This document shows, piece by piece, positions 14,363 through 53,789 of a DNA stretch of 58,165 nt; the first letter of the stretch is position 1, and every line of letters begins with the position of its first letter. The notes beneath the pieces were generated by a model. That model ran no database searches and had not been told where the DNA came from. It was given only the letters and a program-made list of their open reading frames with translations. Source of the stretch: an uncultured Pseudomonadota bacterium (lineage in GTDB: Bacteria; Pseudomonadota; Alphaproteobacteria; UBA9219); contig CAIXHP010000059.1 of assembly GCA_903919315.1 (NCBI GenBank), positions 1 through 58,165 on the forward strand. The letters run 5' to 3'. Made by a program: the position numbers and the translations under genes.

Positions 14363-15691
14363 CTAAAGATTCTGCCGCGCCCATTGGCTGATGCGGTTCA
14401 TTATGCCGTTGCCGCCGGACTCCACGCCGCTTTGCGTCGCGGCCAGTTCGGGCTGCATGGCGATGGCAAGAAGCCCCGCTGTGGTGGAAAAGGCCGGGCC
14501 GGACGTGGCCTCGGCAAGACCTGTAAAAGCGTGAGCGCCGTTGCGTGTCGCGGCGACGTACGGGCGCGAAATCCGTAAGGGCCGCCCCAGCCGCACTTGC
14601 TTGTCGAGAACGCGCTGGGCCACGTCGCGGATGCCGGGCAGCTGGCTTGATCCGCCCGTCAGCACCACGCGCCGTCCGGCTACATCGGTGAAGCCGCTCT
14701 TTTCCAGCCGCGCGCGCGCCATTTCGAAAATCTCGTCGAGGCGCGGCTGGATGATGCGGATCAGGTGCGACTTCGGCACATGATTGGCGTGTTCCGGCTC
14801 TTCCTCGCCCACCTGCGGCACGTCGATGATCTCGCGGTCGTCCGTCGGGCCGAGAATGGCGCTGCCATAGAGCGTCTTGAGCCGCTCGGCGTGGGCCAGA
14901 GTCGTGGTCAGACCGCGCGCGACATCGTTGGTGATGTGAGCCCCGCCGATCGGCAAGCCGTCGGCGAACACCATATGCCCGTCGAAAAAGATTCCCATCG
15001 ATGTCGTGCCGCCGCCGATGTCGATGACGGTGCAGCCTAAATCCATTTCGTCTTCGACCAGACAGGCGAGGCCGCTGGCGTAAGGGGCGGCGACTAGCCG
15101 TTCGACTTCCAGATGGCTGCGCGCCACGGCGGTCACGAGCGTGCGAACGGGGCCGAACGCGGCGGACACCAGATGAAGTTGCGCCTCAAGCGCGTTGCCG
15201 ATCATGCCGAGCGGATCGCGGATGCCCTTTTGACCGTCCAGCGCGTAATGCACGGGGATGGCGTGGACGATCTCAGGCACGCGGCCCTGCGCGTCTTCGG
15301 CCAGAAGATTCTGGCCTTGAGCGCGTATCCGCTCTACGTCCGAGTAAGTGACATCGCGGCCATTCAGCGGCAGTTCAACGCCGACGGTTTGGGATTTCAG
15401 CAACGGCCCGGCGACGTTGACGATCACATGATCGATGGTTTCACCTGCCATCTGCTCTGCCGTCGTGACCGCCGCCATGACGGTCTGCTGGACGGCTTCC
15501 ATATCGGCGACAAGTCCGGTGCGCATGCCTTCGGCGAGCTGATGGCCGATGCCGATCACGCGCGGCTGGCCCTGATCGTCGGCGCGCGCGATGAGACAGG
15601 CGATCTTGGTCGAGCCGATGTCGAGCGCGGCAAAGACATCGCCTTGCGACGGGCGTTGCTGGCCCATGAGCCATTGCGTCAATTTGCTCAT
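14363..15691 (-). CDS. ftsA: Cell division protein FtsA
   Basis: Actin-like protein that tethers FtsZ to the membrane and helps recruit the divisome. The 442 residues show ALDIGSTKIACLIAR (phosphate 1), VIDIGGGTTSMGIF (phosphate 2), VLTGGSSQLPGI (adenosine motif), the SHUFXI/1C region between, and the C-terminal amphipathic helix MNRISQWARQNL that binds membrane. Its ATG overlaps the ftsQ stop by one base (TGATG). Unusually, ftsZ does not follow: the next gene is the convergent Nramp-like transporter. Confidence 0.97.
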   Translation of the reverse strand: MSKLTQWLMGQQRPSQGDVFAALDIGSTKIACLIARADDQGQPRVIGIGHQLAEGMRTGLVADMEAVQQTVMAAVTTAEQMAGETIDHVIVNVAGPLLKSQTVGVELPLNGRDVTYSDVERIRAQGQNLLAEDAQGRVPEIVHAIPVHYALDGQKGIRDPLGMIGNALEAQLHLVSAAFGPVRTLVTAVARSHLEVERLVAAPYASGLACLVEDEMDLGCTVIDIGGGTTSMGIFFDGHMVFADGLPIGGAHITNDVARGLTTTLAHAERLKTLYGSAILGPTDDREIIDVPQVGEEEPEHANHVPKSHLIRIIQPRLDEIFEMARARLEKSGFTDVAGRRVVLTGGSSQLPGIRDVAQRVLDKQVRLGRPLRISRPYVAATRNGAHAFTGLAEATSGPAFSTTAGLLAIAMQPELAATQSGVESGGNGIMNRISQWARQNL

Positions 15692-16545
15692 CAGTTCGAC
15701 TCCCCGGTGGGTTTGGCGGGCGCGGCCCCGTTCGGCTCGAACACCAGCCGGTCCGGCAGGCGCAAGTCGACGGCGGCGAGGTCGCGTTCCAGAATCTTTT
15801 GTTCGTGGATCAGGCGCACCAGATGCGCCAGCGCCGACGACATGTTGTCTTCGGGCAAGCGCACCAATAGCTTGGGTTGCAAATAGAGGTTCCAGCGCCG
15901 CTCGCTGACGCGGACGGCCGCTTTCATGATGCGTTCGATCTCAGGGAAATTCTTGAGCGTGGTCAGCAGGTCTTCCGCCTGCGCCGGAGCGTCGTGGCCC
16001 ACCACCAGCGGCAGTTGCGCGAATTGCTCCGGTTTGGCGGCGGGCAGTTCGTGGCCCTCGCGGTCGATCACCGACACTTTGTTGTCGTGCTGCCATCGCG
16101 CGAGGGGCTGGCGCTCGGTTAAGCGCACATAAACCGTATCCGGTAAGCGGCGTTCGATCACGGCGTTGGCGACCCACGGCAATTCCAAAACTTTTTCGTG
16201 CGCGGCGGCGGGGTCGAATCCCAATATCGGAGCGTTCGCGCCGACACCAAGCGCGGCGAACAGCTCTTTTTTGTCGGTATGCCGCCGCCCTTCGACCACC
16301 ACGTCGCGCACGGAAAAATGCGCCCTTTGCGTCATCTGCAATGCGCCGTCGATCAGGCGATCGGCCTGCCGTTGCGGCCAGCCGATATGCCACAGCCACG
16401 CGCTCAGCAGCAAAAGCAGACACGCTGATCCGGCCAGCAGGCCGAGCCGCAGGCCAAAGCCGAACCAATGCGACTCGTCCTCGACCCGGCGCGGGTTGTT
16501 CTGCATCACGCTGCCGCGCAGCGTTCTGGTCTTTATCCGCGCCAT
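15691..16545 (-). CDS. ftsQ: Cell division protein FtsQ
   Basis: Bitopic divisome protein linking early and late division proteins in the periplasm. The 284 residues have a short cytoplasmic N-terminus, one transmembrane helix at about residues 28-50, and a POTRA domain beginning at FSVRDVVVEGRRHTDK, followed by the FtsQ beta domain (VIERRLPDTVYVRLTERQPL, VIDREGH). It is translationally coupled to ftsA. Between it and the upstream ddl lies a long inverted repeat. Confidence 0.94.
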   Translation of the reverse strand: MARIKTRTLRGSVMQNNPRRVEDESHWFGFGLRLGLLAGSACLLLLLSAWLWHIGWPQRQADRLIDGALQMTQRAHFSVRDVVVEGRRHTDKKELFAALGVGANAPILGFDPAAAHEKVLELPWVANAVIERRLPDTVYVRLTERQPLARWQHDNKVSVIDREGHELPAAKPEQFAQLPLVVGHDAPAQAEDLLTTLKNFPEIERIMKAAVRVSERRWNLYLQPKLLVRLPEDNMSSALAHLVRLIHEQKILERDLAAVDLRLPDRLVFEPNGAAPAKPTGESN

Positions 16546-16801: not shown

Positions 16802-19216
16802 TCATGATGCAGAGGCCTGCGCGGCGGACAAAAGGTTGCGGTAGCGCCGCCAGCCCAATTCCACCAACTTTTCCAGAAAAGCGCGCGGCGACAACGGCGG
16901 CTGTTCCGCCAGCGCTTGATGGAAAATGACGGTCGAAGCGGTGAGGCCAGGCAGGCTGTTCGCTTCGATCAGCATAGTCTGATTTGTCTGCACATTGAAG
17001 AAAATATCGAGCCGCGCATAGCCCTCGATCCCCAATGCTTTCGCTGCCGACACGATCTTTGTTTTGATAAGCTCCGCCTGCTGGGCGGAGAGGATGTCGG
17101 CGGGCGGCGGGGTCAGATTAACGCCTGTGCCGCCCTGAAACTTCTCTTCCAGCGACAGCACGCCGCTCTGCGCCACCGTGATGCTGGGCGAAAGGGCATG
17201 ATAGCGTCCGTCTTCCTCCATCACGCCGACGGTCAGTTCGACCCAGCCGGTGTTGCGGCTGTAGCGCAGTTCTTGCCGTTCCAGATGAATGTCGTCGGTG
17301 ACGATGAACGGTTCCATGAGCAGGATATCGGCGCTGAGCGGCAGTTCGACCGCGCCCGCGTGGTGCTTGAGGCTCCCCGGGGGCAGAAGCGGTTCACGCT
17401 TCTGCAAGGCGCGGAGGAACGTCAGCAACTCCGCCGCCGAAGCCAACCGCGCCACGCCTGCCGAACAGCCGTCGCTTCCGGGCTTGATGAGCAGATCGTG
17501 GCTTTGCAAACGGCGCTCGGCATCGGCCCAGAACGCGGCGCAGCCTTCGGGCGTGACCGTGACGGTGTTTAGCGTGAAGCTCAGCTTTGGCGCGGCGATC
17601 AGGCCGGACTCGCCTAAGGCGCGGATAACTTTGCCGGTCGCGTCCTTGTCCATGCAGAGTTTAGATGCGGTGGGGCCGGAGCCGTTGTGCGGCACGCCGT
17701 GGCGTTCCAGCAAGGCTTGCAACGTCCCGTCCTCGCCCGCGCCGCCATGCAGCGCGAGAAAGACAAAGGCATCGTCCCGCTTTGCCTGCGCGCAAAACGC
17801 CTCAAGGCTCATGCGTTCCGGTAAATCCGCCGTGGTGGCCATCGACGGTAAGCCGAGGCGCTGCCGCAGCGGCGGGACGAGCGTTTGGAGCCGTGCCGCG
17901 ACGCTGGCGGCCTCCTCGCAGTGGAACAAAATTTCTTCGACGGTGTGGTTCAGTGTGTAGGCATAGGGCAAACGCCAAACCTGATCGTCGGGAGCGAGCA
18001 AATACGGCTCCGGCGCGTAACGCCAAGACGGGCGCAACTTGAGCCACACGTTGGTGCCGGACATTAGCGACACTTGCCGCTCCGCCGTCGTGCCGCCGAA
18101 CAGGACGCGCACAGGCGTGGCCGCGCTCTTCTCCGGCGGGACAAGCGGCGGAACCTTGATGCCATAGCGCGTGGCGGCATGCGTGACGATCTGGCGCAGG
18201 ATGTCGCCGTGGGTCAGGCCGATGCGGCTGGCCTGATGGAACAAAAAGCTGTTCTGCTCCATGCCGGAAATAGGATTGAAGTCCGAGAAGATGACGCGCC
18301 CGTCCGCCAGCCACCAGCCGTCGAGCCGCGCGAAATCGCGCATGCCGAAAAATTCGAACAACACTTCGGCGGCGCGTTGGATGGCGGCGATGATTTCGTC
18401 CGGAAAGCGCGGCGGGCAGTGATAGGCGACGTGGCAGGTTGGCAGGTATTTGTGGCGAAAGCTGAAAATGCCGCCTTCGCCGCCCTGAAGCTCGATCTCG
18501 GTGGGCAACAGCGCGACGGGCTTGTCGTCATGGCCTTGAAGCGTCAGCACGGTGAATTCGCGGCCCTCGCAATAAGGCTCGATCATGGCGGCGGGGCTGA
18601 ACTGGCGGGCGAACAGCTCACGGACTTTCTCCAGCGCCTCTTCGGGCGTGTAAACCGTCGCGATGCCGAGACTGGAGCCTCCCGCCGTCGGTTTGACCAC
18701 CGCCTTATGCAAATGATGTTCGGCGAAAAACGCGCTGAGCTTGGCTTCCATCACGTCAAAGCGGTCGGTTTCCTGCACGAGACAATGGGGCAGGGGGGCA
18801 AAGCCGTGGTGCGCCAGTTGGGTGTTGGCTTTCGCTTTGTCGAACATCATCGCGCAGCTTTGGCTGGACGATCCGACAAAGGGAATGCCGTGACGCTCCA
18901 ACAGGCCTTGCAATTCTCCGTCCTCGCCGAACGCGCCATGGATGGCGGGGAACACCAGATCGACCTTGCGGCAGGCGGCGATGAACGCTTCTTCGGACAA
19001 AGGTTGCGCCGTGTGCGCCAGCTTAAAGTCGAAATCCGACGGCGTGTTGGAATACATCTGCGCGGGCGAGAGCTGGTAAAAGCGTTTCTGCGCGTCGCAG
19101 AAAAACGGCACGATCTCCCATTCCAGCGGCGACAGATGATCCAGCAGCGACCGCGCCGAATTCAACGAAATACCCCGCTCCGCCGAGGGGCCACCGCAAA
19201 TGACGGCTAAACGCAT
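16802..19216 (-). CDS. ddl: Tandem (double-domain) D-alanine--D-alanine ligase
   Basis: 804 residues against about 300-370 for ordinary Ddl. Two complete Ddl/ATP-grasp units follow one another. Unit 1 (about 1-362) has CGGPSAERGISL, HGAFGEDGELQGLLERHG, VVKPTAGGSSLGI and a metal motif changed to SDFNP (D312, N314). Unit 2 (about 368-804) has FGGTTAERQVSL, LHGGAGEDGTLQALLERHG, LIKPGSDGCSAGV and the canonical IEANSLPGLT (E751, N753). Position upstream of ftsQ-ftsA is the usual dcw place for ddl. The ATG at 19216 follows aaggaga. Unit 2 looks fully catalytic; unit 1 may be altered in substrate or activity. Confidence 0.88.
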   Translation of the reverse strand: MRLAVICGGPSAERGISLNSARSLLDHLSPLEWEIVPFFCDAQKRFYQLSPAQMYSNTPSDFDFKLAHTAQPLSEEAFIAACRKVDLVFPAIHGAFGEDGELQGLLERHGIPFVGSSSQSCAMMFDKAKANTQLAHHGFAPLPHCLVQETDRFDVMEAKLSAFFAEHHLHKAVVKPTAGGSSLGIATVYTPEEALEKVRELFARQFSPAAMIEPYCEGREFTVLTLQGHDDKPVALLPTEIELQGGEGGIFSFRHKYLPTCHVAYHCPPRFPDEIIAAIQRAAEVLFEFFGMRDFARLDGWWLADGRVIFSDFNPISGMEQNSFLFHQASRIGLTHGDILRQIVTHAATRYGIKVPPLVPPEKSAATPVRVLFGGTTAERQVSLMSGTNVWLKLRPSWRYAPEPYLLAPDDQVWRLPYAYTLNHTVEEILFHCEEAASVAARLQTLVPPLRQRLGLPSMATTADLPERMSLEAFCAQAKRDDAFVFLALHGGAGEDGTLQALLERHGVPHNGSGPTASKLCMDKDATGKVIRALGESGLIAAPKLSFTLNTVTVTPEGCAAFWADAERRLQSHDLLIKPGSDGCSAGVARLASAAELLTFLRALQKREPLLPPGSLKHHAGAVELPLSADILLMEPFIVTDDIHLERQELRYSRNTGWVELTVGVMEEDGRYHALSPSITVAQSGVLSLEEKFQGGTGVNLTPPPADILSAQQAELIKTKIVSAAKALGIEGYARLDIFFNVQTNQTMLIEANSLPGLTASTVIFHQALAEQPPLSPRAFLEKLVELGWRRYRNLLSAAQASAS

Positions 19217-46456: not shown

Positions 46457-49400
46457 TCAGCTGATGCGCTTCAGGCTGTCTTCCGCCTGACGCTGCAGCA
46501 CATGGTCAACCGTGTCGCCCATGACATCGCCCGTGGCGGACAACTGACGCAGGATCTGCTCCAGCGAATTGAGCAAATCCTCGCCCTGCAGCTTGAGCGC
46601 GACGCGCATGCGGTCGGTGCGTTGCTGCATCTCTTCGATGGACTTGTTCATCTGCAGGACTTGCGTCTGAGCGTCGACGACCGCGTGGTTCATGCTGTGC
46701 GTTTGGTCGGCGTACATTTGCCCGACGCCGCGCACGATCTCGGTGACGGTCTTTGACCCGTCGGTGAGCCCGCGCATTTGCTTTTCGACGCTGTGGGCGA
46801 CCTCAGAGAGGCGCGCCACGGCTTCGTCGCTGACATCGGCGGTGAGAACGCGGTTCGATTCGAGCCGTTCGGCAACCGAGCCGAGATGGCCGAGCGCCGT
46901 CTGCAACTGGCCGATCAGATCGCTTTCATGCCGCTTGATGCCGTCGCCCGCCATCGACAACCGGTCGAGCAACACGTCGATCTGGTCGCCAAAGCCGCTC
47001 AACAGCTTGGCCACTTCCTCGGTCGCGACGCGCATACGCGCCGTGCGGTCGCTGAGCTGGTTCGCCGTATCCTTGCTGGTCTGGTCGAAGCGTGTGGCGA
47101 TCTTTTCCACGTCCGCCACGGTGCCCGCTGTGGCCGAGCGCAGGGTGGTGCCGGTGCGCTCCAACTGCGCCGTGATTTGCATCAGTCCACGGTTGATGTC
47201 GTCGATCTGCATCTGCACGCCCGTGCGGATGCGCTCCAACTGCTCGCGGAAGCTCTGGCTGGCGCTCAGCATCTGGCCTTCGGCGCGTTCGGTCGTTTCG
47301 GTCAGGAGCGTGATCTGCTTGTTGACCCCTTCGCTGGCCTGAGCCAAGCGCTGTGTGGTCGCGCCTGTGCGGGCATCGATCACGTCGAATTCACGCGCCA
47401 GCTTTTCCGTCGTCTGCACGGCTTCGTCGCGCAGCTTGGCCAGACGCTCGGCCGAGGCGGAGAGTTGGGCGATGCTGTGCGCCGACTTTTCGACCAGTTC
47501 GGTCTGCTCGGCGGACATTTTCTTGCCGCCCAGCTGGATCGCATCGATCTGTTCGGCCAGAGCCTTGTTAAAGGCGCGCAGGGTCTGGTCGGAGGTTTCG
47601 GCCACCTTCTCCAGATTCCGCGCTTCGTCCATCATCGAGTCGCGTACCGCGCCCGTGACGTTGATAAAGCGGTCGGCCGTGCCGAGAATGGCATAGTCGA
47701 TGACTCCGGCCTGTTCCTTGAACGTCTTGCCGGTCGCTTCGATCCGTGCCGTGCTGCGGTCGAGGACGACGGGCAGCTGAACGGATTCGTCGCGCACCAG
47801 CGTCGCCGCCTGCACAAGCGCCGATTCGGAACTCGCCAGATTGGCGCGGAGCGTGTCGCTCTGCGTCGTGAGGTCGAGACCAGCCGCTGTGACTTGCTCG
47901 ACGGCAAGCTGCGAGACTTCGGCAACATGTTCCAATTCGCGCTGCAGCGTGGTCTTGACCTCGGCGATGCGCGCGCTGACCTGATCCAGCATGGCGCGTC
48001 CGTCGCGGTCGCTCGCGGCCATCGTGTCGCGCAACGTGACGAGGCGCGTGGTGGCGTATTCGGCGGTGTCGGCCAGTTGTCGCGCCTGTTGCTCGGTCGT
48101 CTCGCCCGCCTCGGTGACGGTCTTGACGTGGATGCGGATCTTGTCGCCCGCGCTGGCCACGCGCGCTTCGGCCTGTTCGGCGACGGCGGCGAGGATTTCG
48201 GCCTGCTTCTCAAGCGTTTCGTTGGTGGTTTTGGCCAAGCTGGAGAACTGCAGCACCGATTGATCCATGCTGTTGATCACGCTGCCGCTTTGCTGCTTGA
48301 GCTGCTGGCTGGTGGTGTCGAGTTGGGTTACCACGCCGTTCAGCTGTTCGATGACGCGCGACGATTCGCCCTGCATCGATTCCCGCAGCTGCCGCGCCTG
48401 ATCCTGCATGGCGGCGGTGACGGAGAGCATGCCGCGCACCTGTTGCTCGGTCTGCTGGGCCTGAATGTTGAGCGTTCCGGCTTCATCGACGAACCCGGCT
48501 CCGGCGGCCCGCACGTTGGCAAGCGTGTTCTGCGCCACCGATTCGAGCGCGACCATCTGCTTGGTGATCTGTTGCGTGTTGTCGGTGAGACGGGCGGCGT
48601 TGCGTTCCGCGACCGCTGACGTTTCGTCCTGCGCCAAAGCCAGACGGTTGAGCAGAGCGTTCAACGTGTCGCGCTGTTGGTCAAGCGACGAGGTGAGCGC
48701 GCGCTGCCGTTCGCTGATCTGCTGCATGCTGGCGATAAGCGCCGTGGTCTGTTCGTTGACCGAGCCGTGCAGCGTGGTCAGCGTGCCTTCCGCCGTGGTG
48801 CCCAGATCGCGAAGATCCTTGCTGCCGCTGGTGAGCTTGGCGAGGATCGTGTCGAGCGCCAGACCCGTGCGGTCGCTCTCGCTCTGGATCGTTTCGCGCA
48901 TCTGGCGCGCTTGTTCTTGCATCATCGACACATTGGCAAACAGCGCTTGCGTTTGCTGTTCGGCCTGCTGCGCGTGTTGGCTGAGGGCGGCGGATTCGTC
49001 CCCGAAACGCGCGCCGGCCACATGGACGTTGGCCAGAGTCGTGTTGGCCTGCGTGTCGATTTCGTCCATCTGGCGCGCGATTTGCAGGATGTTGTCGGTA
49101 AGCCGCGCGGCGCAGCGCTCCGCCACCGTGGTGGCTTCGTCTTGTGCGGTGGTCAGGCGGTTCAGCAAACCATTGAGCGTTGTGCTTTGCGAATCCAGCG
49201 TGTCGTTGAGAACGCGTTGACGTTCGTCGATCTGCCGCATCGTGCCGGTCAAAGCCGTCGTTTGCGCGTCGACGGTGCCCCGCAGGTGCGTGAGCATGGT
49301 TTCCGCCGAAGTTCCCAGATCGATCAGCTGTGTGTTGCCGCCGTCCAGTTTTTGCAGCAGCGCGGTGAGCGCCTGCGTCACGCGGTCGCTCTCGCCATCG

Positions 49401-52400
49401 AGGCTTGCGCGCAACTGTACGGCTTCTTTCTGCAGCGTCGCGGTGTTGTTGAACAGGGCTTGCGCCTGCTTCTCGGCCTGCTGCGCGTTGCTGGCGAGCG
49501 TTGCGGATTCTTCGGCAAACCCGGCGTTGACCTTGCGGATGCTGGCAATCGAAGACTCGGCGCAAGAATCGATGGTTTCGATCTGCTCGGTGATTTGGCG
49601 GGTGCTGTCGGACAGACGGTTAACGCTGCGCTCGGCCACGGCGGCGGTTTCGTCCTGCGCCAGCGTCAGGCGATTGAGCAAGCCGTTCAACACGTCGCGC
49701 TGCGCGTCGAGCGCAGTGGTCAGGCCGCGTTGCCGGTCGCTGATCTGCTGCATCGAGCTGTTCAGTGCCGATGTTTGTTGCGTGACGTTGTTGTTCAGGC
49801 TGGTCAGCGTGACTTCGGCGGTGGCACCGAGATCGCGCAGCTCGCTGTTTCCGGCGCTGATGCGGCCCAAGAGGCTGCCCAAAATCTCGCCGGTGCGTTC
49901 GCCTTCGCCATGCAGAGCGTCGCGCAACTGGCGCGCCTGATCTTGCAACGCCGAGGTGACGGAGAGGACGGTGCGGGCCTGTTGTTCGGCCTGCTGCGCA
50001 TGTTGGAGCAGCGAGCCCGCCTGATCGGCAAAGCCTGTGCCCGCCGTGCGGACGTTGGCCAGCGTGGTCTGCGATTGATCGCTGAGGACGCCCAACTGAC
50101 GCTGAATCTGCTGCAACGCGTCGGTGAGGCGGGTGATGGTGCGTTCCGCCACTTCGGAGGCTTGGCCATGCGCCGAGCCGAGTTTGTCGAACAGATCGAC
50201 CAACTGGGTGCGCTGGTTTTCGTTGGCGGCGGTGAGGGCGCGATGCTGTTCGCTCAGCTGATCGCCGACGAGATTGAGCGACGCGACCTGTTGCGTGATG
50301 CTGGCCCCGAGGCTGTTGAGCGTGGTGTCGGCCTTGGCCGCTATGTCGAGCAGTTCCTGACTGGTGCTGCCGATACGACTGGAGGCGTTCTGAGTCATTT
50401 CGTGGAACCGCGACGAAGCCTGATCGGCACCGAGCGTGGCGGTGGCCGCCGCTTGTTGCAGTTTGGCGGTCGTCGCGTCGAGTTGGCCGACCGTTTCGCT
50501 GAGCGAGGTGACGAGGCGGTGATTGTTCTGCTCCATCGCCGCGCGGATTTGCGTCGATTGATCGGCAAAGGCGGTCGTGGCGGCGCTGAGGTTGCGGATG
50601 TTTTGTTCAACCTGATGCGTGGAATCGATCATGCGCGTGGACTGTTCGCCAAAAGCGGTTCCCGCCTTTTGGATCATGATCACCGCGTTCTGCGCCGCGT
50701 CGTTGAGGCCGTTGCTCTGGCGTTGGAAGGCGTTGTTGGCTTCCTCGATGCGCGCGACGGATTGCTGCGCGCTGTTGACGGTGGTTTCTTGGGTGACGGC
50801 CAGCTTCTCGTTGAGGAGGCTGAGTTGTTGCAGCGTCTTGCCGCCCGCGCCGGTAATCTGGCTGGCGGTCGCTTCCAACTGGGTTGATCCCGTGCCGATC
50901 AGGCTGATCTGCTGCTGCAACACGTTGTTGAGGGTTTCGACGTTGGTTTGCGCTTGCGCGGCGGTTTGACCGAGCTTGGCGGCGCGGGTCTCGAATTCGT
51001 CCGCCGTGGCGCGGGTCATCTCGCCGTAATGCGTGGCCATGCGGTCGAGCAGGGCTTGCGCGGTGTCGGTGCGCTGCTTGAGCGATTCGCCCAGAATCGT
51101 GAACTTTTGCTCGGCGCGCGCCAGATCGGCGTTGAGGTCGTCGGCCTGCTTTTGCAGAACCGCGCGAATCTGCGCCGCTTCGGTCTGGAGCGCGGAGGTG
51201 ACGATTTGGATTTTCGTACCGGAATCTTCGGCGTCGCGTTGCAACTGTTGCGAATGCTGGCTGACCTGCGAGGCGGCCTGCTGCAGGATGCTGACGGCCT
51301 GCGACGTGTTGCCTCCCAACAAGCCGACTTCCTTTTGCAAGCGGTCGGCGACCGAGCCGAATTGTTCGATCGTGCTGCGCGCGGAATCCTCTTGCGCGGC
51401 GCGCGCGGCGAGGAAACGCCCGTTGAGTTGTTCGATGGTGTTCAGCGTTTCGGTGGTCATGCGGCTGACTTCTTCGCCCATGCCGTTGACGCGGGTGTTG
51501 AACTGCTGCAGGCGAGTCAATTGCTCCTGCATGTTTTCGCCATAGCGGCCCACGGATTCGAGGCCTTGAGTCGTGCATTGCTCGATCTCGTGCACAGCCT
51601 GCTGCACCGGAATGGCGGCGCTCGAGGAGAAATCTTTCAAACGCTGATCGGCGCTGTCGAGCCGCTCCTGCGTTTCCTTGAGCAAGGATGTGAGGCTGAG
51701 ATTCTGTTCGCGCATCGTCTGCTCGGCCGTCTTCGCCTGGTTTTGCAGCTGCTCGATGGTGCCGCGCAGGCTGGTTTCCGCCGCCTGCGCTTGGCCCGTG
51801 ATCGCGCCTTCTTGACGTCCCAGCGATTCCGTGGCGATGCCGAGGGCATGCACGGTCATCTGTGCCGCTTCGTTGATGCGGGTGATGACGACTTCGTTCT
51901 GGTCGACAGCGGCGCGGAGCTTTTCGGTCAGCGTTTCGCCCACGCTTTGGGTCGCGTCGCGCGTGGCCAACAGGCGTTCCAGAACATGTTGCAGGTTTTG
52001 CAGCGCGGATCCGGCGCGGGTCTGAACTTCCTGTCCGGCCATTTGCGAAGCGTTGAAGAGAGCTTCGAACTGCGACAATTGGGTGCCGATTTCGCTGGTG
52101 ATTGAGCGCACCTTTTCCTTGTGCTCGTCGGAGGTCGTGCCGAGCTGAAGGGCGGCGGCTTCGTATTTCGCCGCCGTTTCAGTGAGGTGGGCGGCAATGT
52201 CGTCCGCGCCGCGCCGTGCTTCGGCGTTGACAGCGGTAAATTGCTTGAGCGCGTCGTCGGCGCGGTTGCCGAGATGCGCGAGGCTGCCTTGCAGTTGTTG
52301 CGACAAATCGTCGGTCGCGTCGCCGATCCGCGCCACGAGGCCGTCGAGATCGCTGCGCCGCTGTTGCAAGCCGTGGTCGATGTCCTGAATCTTGACCCCG

Positions 52401-53557
52401 AACCGATCAAGCACGCCTTGCAGCCCTTCGATCTGCTCGCCCAGCTTATCGCCGAGATGGACGGCCTGTTCGCGCGCGAGCTGTTCGCTGGCATACAGGC
52501 GGTCGGCGACGCCGCGCAGGACGGTTTCGGCCTCGATGACGCGGGCGGGGAGGGTGCTGCTGAATTCGTCCAGTACGCGGGTCTGCGAATCAAGCGCGCC
52601 TGCAAGACGTTCGGCCTCTTCGCGCGCGGTGCTGGCGCGCTCGAGGAAATGGGCGATGTTGATGTCGATTTTGCCGGACAAGTCTTGCAGCGTTGACGAG
52701 GCGCTCTCGGCGGCGTTAATGAGGCTGGATTCCTGCGCCCGCGCGGTGTCGGACAGTTTTTTGCTGTCGCGCATGGCTTGTTCGAGGGAGGTGCTGACAA
52801 TTTGCGTGTTCGATTCGATGTCTTGCAGCAGGGTACTCAACTGCTCGCGCACCGCTTCGGTCTGGCGCGAAACGCCGTCGCCGCTCTGCAAAAGCTTGCC
52901 GTCGAGGATGCGCAGCATGGTGAACTTGTCTTCCATCAATTGCTCGATGTGCTGCATGCTGTGACGGATGACGTCTTGGATTTCCTTGACCTGATAAACG
53001 CTGTGCTGTTCGAACTGTTCCAACTCGTTCTTGTGTTGGCGCACGCGTTCCATGATCGTCATCATGTCGTCGTGGTTGACATCCTTGGTGGTGCGGAGAA
53101 GGTCGAGCTGCTCGCGGATCGCCTGATTAAAGCGGCGGATGCGCACTTCGGCGGCGCCTGATTCGCCCGTGATCATCATGAGCTGGCGACGCAACGGCTC
53201 GGCGACCGACTGCACGTCGGCGGCGCGCTGCAGGTACGCCGTGACCATCCAGATCATGCCGACCGGCGAGGCAATGGCCGAAATGCCGATAGCCCAGTTG
53301 ACGAGCGGCAGCCCGCCGAAGGTGTGAGTCGTTCCCGATTGCATCAGCGCGATGGCGACCACGCCCACCCAAACGATGGAAAGCGCAAGCCCCATCCAGA
53401 AAGGCATGCCGGAGAAATTCATCGGCTTTTTCGGAGCCGCGCGGCGCATGGCGGGCTTGGCCGCCGGTTGCTGCGGCGCTGGCGCGCTTTGGGGCTTGGT
53501 CGAATCGAGGGTTCGGACGGGGGACGGACTTAGAGAAGGATGATTAGGATCGACCAT
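46457..53557 (-). CDS. Giant membrane-anchored coiled-coil protein with 171-residue repeats
   Basis: 2366 residues. A Pro/Ala-rich cytoplasmic N-terminus (about 1-48) precedes two transmembrane helices (about 53-73 and 86-109). Almost all the rest is heptad-like, Gln/Ala/Thr-rich coiled coil. Four tandem units of 171 residues (LNGLLNRLTLAQDETAAVAE as reference, 513 bp period) lie at about 48200-50220. Topology and coiled-coil content recall Caulobacter TipN (888 residues, two N-terminal helices), but this is far longer and homology is not shown. A polar scaffold or septum/cell-shape role is inferred. It is followed closely by cysQ and lies 232 bp after mutS. Confidence 0.8.
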   Translation of the reverse strand: MVDPNHPSLSPSPVRTLDSTKPQSAPAPQQPAAKPAMRRAAPKKPMNFSGMPFWMGLALSIVWVGVVAIALMQSGTTHTFGGLPLVNWAIGISAIASPVGMIWMVTAYLQRAADVQSVAEPLRRQLMMITGESGAAEVRIRRFNQAIREQLDLLRTTKDVNHDDMMTIMERVRQHKNELEQFEQHSVYQVKEIQDVIRHSMQHIEQLMEDKFTMLRILDGKLLQSGDGVSRQTEAVREQLSTLLQDIESNTQIVSTSLEQAMRDSKKLSDTARAQESSLINAAESASSTLQDLSGKIDINIAHFLERASTAREEAERLAGALDSQTRVLDEFSSTLPARVIEAETVLRGVADRLYASEQLAREQAVHLGDKLGEQIEGLQGVLDRFGVKIQDIDHGLQQRRSDLDGLVARIGDATDDLSQQLQGSLAHLGNRADDALKQFTAVNAEARRGADDIAAHLTETAAKYEAAALQLGTTSDEHKEKVRSITSEIGTQLSQFEALFNASQMAGQEVQTRAGSALQNLQHVLERLLATRDATQSVGETLTEKLRAAVDQNEVVITRINEAAQMTVHALGIATESLGRQEGAITGQAQAAETSLRGTIEQLQNQAKTAEQTMREQNLSLTSLLKETQERLDSADQRLKDFSSSAAIPVQQAVHEIEQCTTQGLESVGRYGENMQEQLTRLQQFNTRVNGMGEEVSRMTTETLNTIEQLNGRFLAARAAQEDSARSTIEQFGSVADRLQKEVGLLGGNTSQAVSILQQAASQVSQHSQQLQRDAEDSGTKIQIVTSALQTEAAQIRAVLQKQADDLNADLARAEQKFTILGESLKQRTDTAQALLDRMATHYGEMTRATADEFETRAAKLGQTAAQAQTNVETLNNVLQQQISLIGTGSTQLEATASQITGAGGKTLQQLSLLNEKLAVTQETTVNSAQQSVARIEEANNAFQRQSNGLNDAAQNAVIMIQKAGTAFGEQSTRMIDSTHQVEQNIRNLSAATTAFADQSTQIRAAMEQNNHRLVTSLSETVGQLDATTAKLQQAAATATLGADQASSRFHEMTQNASSRIGSTSQELLDIAAKADTTLNSLGASITQQVASLNLVGDQLSEQHRALTAANENQRTQLVDLFDKLGSAHGQASEVAERTITRLTDALQQIQRQLGVLSDQSQTTLANVRTAGTGFADQAGSLLQHAQQAEQQARTVLSVTSALQDQARQLRDALHGEGERTGEILGSLLGRISAGNSELRDLGATAEVTLTSLNNNVTQQTSALNSSMQQISDRQRGLTTALDAQRDVLNGLLNRLTLAQDETAAVAERSVNRLSDSTRQITEQIETIDSCAESSIASIRKVNAGFAEESATLASNAQQAEKQAQALFNNTATLQKEAVQLRASLDGESDRVTQALTALLQKLDGGNTQLIDLGTSAETMLTHLRGTVDAQTTALTGTMRQIDERQRVLNDTLDSQSTTLNGLLNRLTTAQDEATTVAERCAARLTDNILQIARQMDEIDTQANTTLANVHVAGARFGDESAALSQHAQQAEQQTQALFANVSMMQEQARQMRETIQSESDRTGLALDTILAKLTSGSKDLRDLGTTAEGTLTTLHGSVNEQTTALIASMQQISERQRALTSSLDQQRDTLNALLNRLALAQDETSAVAERNAARLTDNTQQITKQMVALESVAQNTLANVRAAGAGFVDEAGTLNIQAQQTEQQVRGMLSVTAAMQDQARQLRESMQGESSRVIEQLNGVVTQLDTTSQQLKQQSGSVINSMDQSVLQFSSLAKTTNETLEKQAEILAAVAEQAEARVASAGDKIRIHVKTVTEAGETTEQQARQLADTAEYATTRLVTLRDTMAASDRDGRAMLDQVSARIAEVKTTLQRELEHVAEVSQLAVEQVTAAGLDLTTQSDTLRANLASSESALVQAATLVRDESVQLPVVLDRSTARIEATGKTFKEQAGVIDYAILGTADRFINVTGAVRDSMMDEARNLEKVAETSDQTLRAFNKALAEQIDAIQLGGKKMSAEQTELVEKSAHSIAQLSASAERLAKLRDEAVQTTEKLAREFDVIDARTGATTQRLAQASEGVNKQITLLTETTERAEGQMLSASQSFREQLERIRTGVQMQIDDINRGLMQITAQLERTGTTLRSATAGTVADVEKIATRFDQTSKDTANQLSDRTARMRVATEEVAKLLSGFGDQIDVLLDRLSMAGDGIKRHESDLIGQLQTALGHLGSVAERLESNRVLTADVSDEAVARLSEVAHSVEKQMRGLTDGSKTVTEIVRGVGQMYADQTHSMNHAVVDAQTQVLQMNKSIEEMQQRTDRMRVALKLQGEDLLNSLEQILRQLSATGDVMGDTVDHVLQRQAEDSLKRIS

Positions 53558-53789
53558 TGTTCGCCTCAACGCCTTGGAAAGAGAGAGTCAAATAACCAGA
53601 CGCGGCCAAGATCATCGCAGGACGCAACGCAACCAATCCGGCGACAAGGCGCATGTAGGCACAGTGACAGCGTCGCGAGTGTAGAGTCCTCTCTTTCAAA
53701 AGGGAAGCGTTAACAGCGCCCAAGTCGTTCATGCGCCGAAAAAGTTACCGAGAGGACACGCCGCTAAGCTCTTGAGCGTTGACAGCGTT

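Follow-up and report, generated by a model that had tools for sequence, protein, structure and literature searches.

A tandem ddl gene and its neighbourhood

On the minus strand of the window (the whole stretch of DNA analysed, 58,165 nucleotides from an uncultured member of the Pseudomonadota), positions 16802..19216 hold a gene for a tandem D-Ala-D-Ala ligase (Ddl) of 804 amino acids plus a stop codon. Its ATG start at 19216 is preceded by AAGGAG, and the plus-strand frame over 16802-19216 has many stops. The coordinates of the original prediction proved exact, and its claim of two complete Ddl units in one 804-residue protein is borne out by Pfam, which finds PF01820 and PF07478 twice each in the single frame, all above cut-offs. 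Unit 1 (residues 1-354; 18155..19216, minus strand), with one copy of each domain, is a Tyr-type Ddl with an altered metal/oxyanion motif; unit 2 (residues 368-804; 16805..18115, minus strand) is a Phe-type Ddl that has two insertions and keeps its metal motif intact. The short linker between them (residues 355-367; 18116..18154, minus strand) varies in both length and sequence in the alignment of tandem proteins, and is longer in G006 and G020. The whole protein scores above the cut-offs of the NCBI D-alanine--D-alanine ligase models NF002528 (301 bits versus 262) and TIGR01205 (300.5 versus 245.65), so automatic annotation would label it as a plain Ddl.

A frame break between the units, which had been named as a possible refutation, was not found; the uninterrupted tandem recurs in related genomes and public contigs. 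A frame error or assembly artefact is ruled out because over 80 public records show the tandem unbroken, and a fused pseudogene copy is ruled out because strong purifying selection acts on both units (dN/dS 0.00-0.05 where synonymous change was unsaturated and the ratio measurable). The chlamydial MurC-Ddl (NF011171) is likewise a Ddl within a larger wall-synthesis protein, but its partner is a Mur ligase; since Pfam finds no Mur_ligase domain in the tandem protein, a fusion of that kind is also ruled out.

The next gene downstream is ftsQ (15691..16545, minus strand; FtsQ_DivIB_C and POTRA_1), followed by ftsA (14363..15691, minus strand; TIGR01174 above cut-off). The predicted position in the dcw cluster therefore stands in part: the order ddl-ftsQ-ftsA is retained, but murC is on another contig, and upstream of the tandem lie fliE, flgC and flgB, which were identified by reading their translations. 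Relatives carry the tandem inside a full dcw cluster, as in G026, where murE-murF-mraY-murD-ftsW-murG-murC is followed by the tandem and then by ftsQ-ftsA-ftsZ-lpxC. G026 and G032 belong to one genus and have the tandem and an ordinary Ddl, respectively, in the same slot between murC and ftsQ; within a single genus, the tandem thus takes the place of an ordinary Ddl in the dcw cluster. At several loci the tandem is separated from murC by murB. The commonest neighbour is alanine racemase (15 loci), which mostly starts 2-39 bp downstream of the tandem gene. Elsewhere in the window, a 2370-aa open frame adjoining mutS (46457-53569, minus strand) has zero Pfam matches.

A check for another ddl, also proposed with the original prediction, found none in the window's genome (2.4 Mb, completeness 100): the PF01820 matches there are the two tandem units alone, which rules out a second ddl elsewhere. 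Two further PF07478 matches, to frames of 447 and 1089 aa, are inferred from their size to be AccC and CarB. Among 12 tandem-bearing Pseudomonadota genomes examined, 12/12 have no other PF01820 protein. Named loci led to six more genomes, and in five of these (one Alphaproteobacteria, three Patescibacteria, one Chlamydiota) the tandem is the only Ddl. The exception, G455 (Kaiserbacteria), has beside the tandem a second, divergent Ddl-like protein (L150:3227 region, minus strand; a 435-aa frame) that is without Tyr216, Arg255 and Asn272. MurF, which consumes the D-Ala-D-Ala dipeptide, is encoded in the window's genome. Given a sole Ddl, the dcw slot, the alanine racemase neighbour and the presence of MurF, together with knowledge of the pathway, supply of D-Ala-D-Ala to MurF is by far the likeliest role of the tandem.

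Two non-equivalent active sites

Ddl residues are numbered here as in E. coli DdlB, and counts are over 82 tandem proteins. Unit 1 keeps Ser150, Ser151, Lys215, Tyr216, Arg255, Asp257, Asn272, Gly276 and Ser281 in 82/82, including the Tyr-type omega-loop pair K256-Y257 (Lys215-Tyr216; 18446..18451, minus strand). It is altered in the motif D312-F-N314-P-I-S-G-M-E320-Q-N-S323 (18248..18283, minus strand), where PGMT has become SGME through Pro275 to Ser (79/82) and Thr278 to Glu (82/82), and where the metal ligand Glu270 is replaced by Asp (82/82) while Ser281 is kept. In terms of the window protein, D312, N314, E320 and S323 are each found in 82/82, and S317 in 79/82.

Unit 2 has its own set of differences. 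The motif E751-A-N753-S-L-P-G-L-T-A-S-T762-V763 (16928..16966, minus strand) keeps the metal residues Glu270 (E751) and Asn272 (N753), as well as Pro275 and Thr278, in 82/82, and has Ser281 to Thr (T762) and Leu282 to Val (V763), likewise in 82/82. Tyr216 is replaced by Phe in 82/82 (K692-F693; 17138..17143, minus strand, within LSLEEKFQGGTG). Position 150 is Cys in 76/82, as in the window protein (C584; 17465..17467, minus strand), and Ser in the other 6, mostly from Rickettsiales.

The Glu15-Ser150-Tyr216 triad is kept in unit 1, whereas unit 2 has Cys or Ser and Phe at its last two positions, and neither unit alone has the triad together with the full metal set. Ordinary DdlA/DdlB (TIGR01205, NF002528) share with the tandem the same two Pfam domains, the fold (Z 38) and the dcw slot before ftsQ-ftsA, but are single units of ~300-370 aa with Ser150, Tyr216, Glu270 and Ser281, which the tandem divides between its units. 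The predicted contrast of Asp-x-Asn in unit 1 with Glu-x-Asn in unit 2 is confirmed, with D312, N314, SGME (317-320), E751 and N753 all in place; the unit-2 changes C584, F693 and T762, which had escaped the original prediction, are no less informative than the unit-1 Asp. Cys150, Phe216 and Thr281 were found in 0 of ~44 single Ddls (relatives, Patescibacteria and E. coli).

Residues conserved at 90% number 106/355 in unit 1 and 99/421 in unit 2. The fixed reciprocal residues and the purifying selection indicate that the halves are held in a reciprocal pattern and have not simply drifted. It is accordingly very unlikely that the protein consists of two redundant D-Ala-D-Ala sites, fused after a duplication and each active independently of the other. 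The ATP-site lysines and glutamates are all conserved in both units, which, like the selection on both, would suit such an arrangement; however, redundant sites would not keep fixed, differing residues in 82/82 across phyla, and the parallel asymmetry of the split pairs described below would be unexpected.

An AlphaFold2 model of the full-length tandem has a mean pLDDT of 88.5 and a pTM of 0.88. So high a value over the whole chain points to a single defined arrangement of the units, although pTM by itself is no proof that they pack as in a Ddl homodimer. Both omega-loops are low-confidence parts of the model, as is expected of mobile lids. The best structural match of unit 1 is Thermus Ddl (Z 38.2), with ordinary Ddls as the top matches (Z ~38); unit 2 modelled alone (pLDDT 91.8) matches Salmonella DdlA with Z 38.4. 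No tandem Ddl chain is among the PDB matches, and the solved forms found are all single-unit chains.

The Phe in unit 2 raises the possibility of two products, in which unit 1, being Tyr-type, would make D-Ala-D-Ala, and unit 2 D-Ala-D-lactate or another D-Ala-D-X. Phe at this position makes the Leuconostoc and Lactobacillus Ddls depsipeptide ligases, and F261Y converts the Leuconostoc enzyme (PMC5996685). The Leuconostoc D-Ala:D-Lac ligase LmDdl2 (PDB 1EHI), a single unit whose omega-loop carries Phe for Tyr216 like that of unit 2, ranks among the top fold matches, tied with ordinary Ddls, and Phe216 together with Cys150 could signal a different second substrate. Nevertheless, we regard this scenario as quite unlikely. 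The tandem falls far under the cut-offs of the NCBIfam D-Ala-D-Lac/Van models (161 bits versus 550 for NF000206), their best-matching stretches are in unit 1, and neither Ser150 to Cys nor Ser281 to Thr belongs to the known D-Lac signature. In addition, the hosts are mostly Gram-negative or wall-reduced, with no evident need for D-Lac ends, and moss precursors terminate in Ala-Ala (PMC9434261).

Distribution of the tandem and the split pairs of Patescibacteria

The 82 homologues with both units, sought as the original prediction had proposed, have the same architecture, are 44-67% identical to the window protein and come from Pseudomonadota, Patescibacteria, Chlamydiota and a few other phyla. 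The tandem is uninterrupted in 11 closely related genomes, the window's own included. A profile scan of ~85,000 species genomes gave 135 relatives in all, with full-length or near full-length tandems at 80 loci or public contigs, some of which are the same records as the related genomes. Among the 80 loci, 27 are labelled Pseudomonadota and 4 Chlamydiota, and the remainder mostly Patescibacteria and its subgroups; single records labelled Thermodesulfobacteriota (Dadabacteria) and Verrucomicrobiota should be read with caution, because most tandem records are metagenome bins. In a Rhodospirillaceae bin (L138:734-3288), unit 1 is interrupted between 955 and 1150 by an insertion or assembly error.

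The tandem is uncommon when genomes are sampled evenly: 2/398 from the window's phylum and ~12/286 from a Patescibacteria sample have it. Its distribution is patchy within the window's family, where other members carry an ordinary Ddl or a long single Ddl of a third type. This third type, seen in the window's order at L048, L049, L050, L051, L053, L055 and L036 (genomes G019, G010, G003, G005, G001, G025 and G027, respectively), is a single unit in open frames of 409-458 aa, mostly outside the dcw slot; Ser281 is replaced in it by Phe or Tyr, and Thr278 by Phe or Leu. A Peregrinibacteria bin has, close to its tandem gene, an 811-aa frame with two ATP-grasp halves (L081:14169 onward, plus strand), of which the second matches the Ddl C-terminus without the Ddl N-domain.

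A mobile origin of the tandem is ruled out by its absence from 72,556 plasmid and 50,697 phage records. In a tree, every unit-1 sequence falls into one group and every unit-2 sequence into a second (SH-aLRT 99 and 100); because each unit is a single clade, the fusion most simply arose once and was then spread or lost. Tree tests were compatible both with unit 1 and unit 2 as sisters and with other placements (AU p 0.25).

A comparable division is seen between separate genes. Split Ddl pairs are present in three Patescibacteria genomes, at L145:2418-5094 (minus strand), where the pair comes after alanine racemase (alr), at L146:3514-6304 (plus strand), beside murA, and at L148:3904-6502 (plus strand); in the L145 and L146 pairs, a peptide deformylase gene separates the two Ddl genes. 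The first gene (alpha) is Tyr-type and no longer has His63, Asn272 or the PGMT motif. The second (beta) has the exact unit-2 set of Cys150, Phe216 and Thr281, with its EPN/PGMT metal motif intact. Alpha and beta are 34.5% identical, compared with 27.6% for beta and unit 2, whereas the tree gives slight preference to a grouping of beta and unit 2 (support 81); the alternative, a separate duplication with alpha, has an AU p of 0.275. Either the split pair and the tandem descend from a shared old pair, or the same asymmetry evolved twice. Both origins speak for two units obliged to work together.

The split pairs also bear on which unit would be the ligase. The roles could be reversed from those proposed below, with unit 1 as the ligase and unit 2 as a binding or allosteric partner. 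Apart from Glu270, unit 1 retains all catalytic residues, among them the complete Glu15-Ser150-Tyr216 triad and Ser281; its substrate residues match those of an ordinary Ddl, and it is slightly more conserved at the 90% level; its Glu to Asp change is conservative, always accompanied by the new Glu320, and may be tolerated. On the other hand, it is the first, Tyr-type gene of the split pairs that has lost Asn272, PGMT and His63, and the second that keeps the full metal motif, and we consider the reversed assignment unlikely.

A predicted internal heterodimer

In ordinary Ddl, two identical subunits form a homodimer. We propose that the tandem Ddl is probably an obligate internal heterodimer that makes D-Ala-D-Ala. 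The pair of a Ddl homodimer would have been covalently fused, after which the halves became non-equivalent. Unit 2, with its complete metal and oxyanion motif, would carry out most of the ligation, and unit 1, whose metal position is Asp, would be a weakly active or regulatory partner that still binds ATP and D-Ala and is indispensable to the complex. The product D-Ala-D-Ala would be passed to MurF.

Of the three readings offered by the original prediction, the internal dimer and the catalytic/regulatory pair are the best supported, as predictions, by the non-equivalence of the sites in 82 proteins, the parallel asymmetry of the split pairs and the whole-chain confidence of the model. The third, an enzyme making a different dipeptide, is kept alive by the unit-2 Phe known from D-Ala-D-Lac ligases, but the murF, alr and dcw context and the product in moss favour D-Ala-D-Ala.

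The plant plastid DDL (Physcomitrium, Arabidopsis), compared by architecture, resembles the bacterial tandem in having two complete Ddl units per chain, and differs in being nuclear-encoded and plastid-targeted. The Arabidopsis enzyme presumably shares the unit-1 and unit-2 motifs as well (SGMEQ, DGCSTG and EEKFQGGTG). The original prediction had allowed that such tandem enzymes might already be characterised; this is so to the extent that a fusion of two Ddl enzymes is described throughout the plant lineage (PMC9954125), but no report of a bacterial tandem Ddl was found in open-licence papers. In moss, loss of DDL leads to giant chloroplasts, and the pentapeptide ends in Ala-Ala (PMC9954125, PMC9434261, PMC7432710). 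The moss Ddl is closest to homologues from the Fibrobacteres-Chlorobi-Bacteroidetes group, not to those of cyanobacteria (PMC9434261).

More tentatively, we suggest that bacteria may have a class of two-site, obligately paired D-Ala-D-X ligases, both fused and split, in which a Tyr-type substrate site and a complete metal site are divided between interdependent, non-equivalent units, and that the plant plastid DDL may descend from this class and not from a cyanobacterial Ddl.

Finally, we note that the bacterial tandem combines an ordinary role with an unusual and widely conserved construction, and that a fused DDL is already known from plants. Ddl, an essential wall enzyme and a target of D-cycloserine, ranks among the best studied of the ATP-grasp family. 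The tandem, widespread and with two fixed, differing sites, shows that the usual substrate-site and metal-site residues are separable between units, and it would be a natural system for separating the roles of the two. It would also provide bacterial counterparts for testing how the double DDL of plant chloroplasts, so far unexplained, arose and works.
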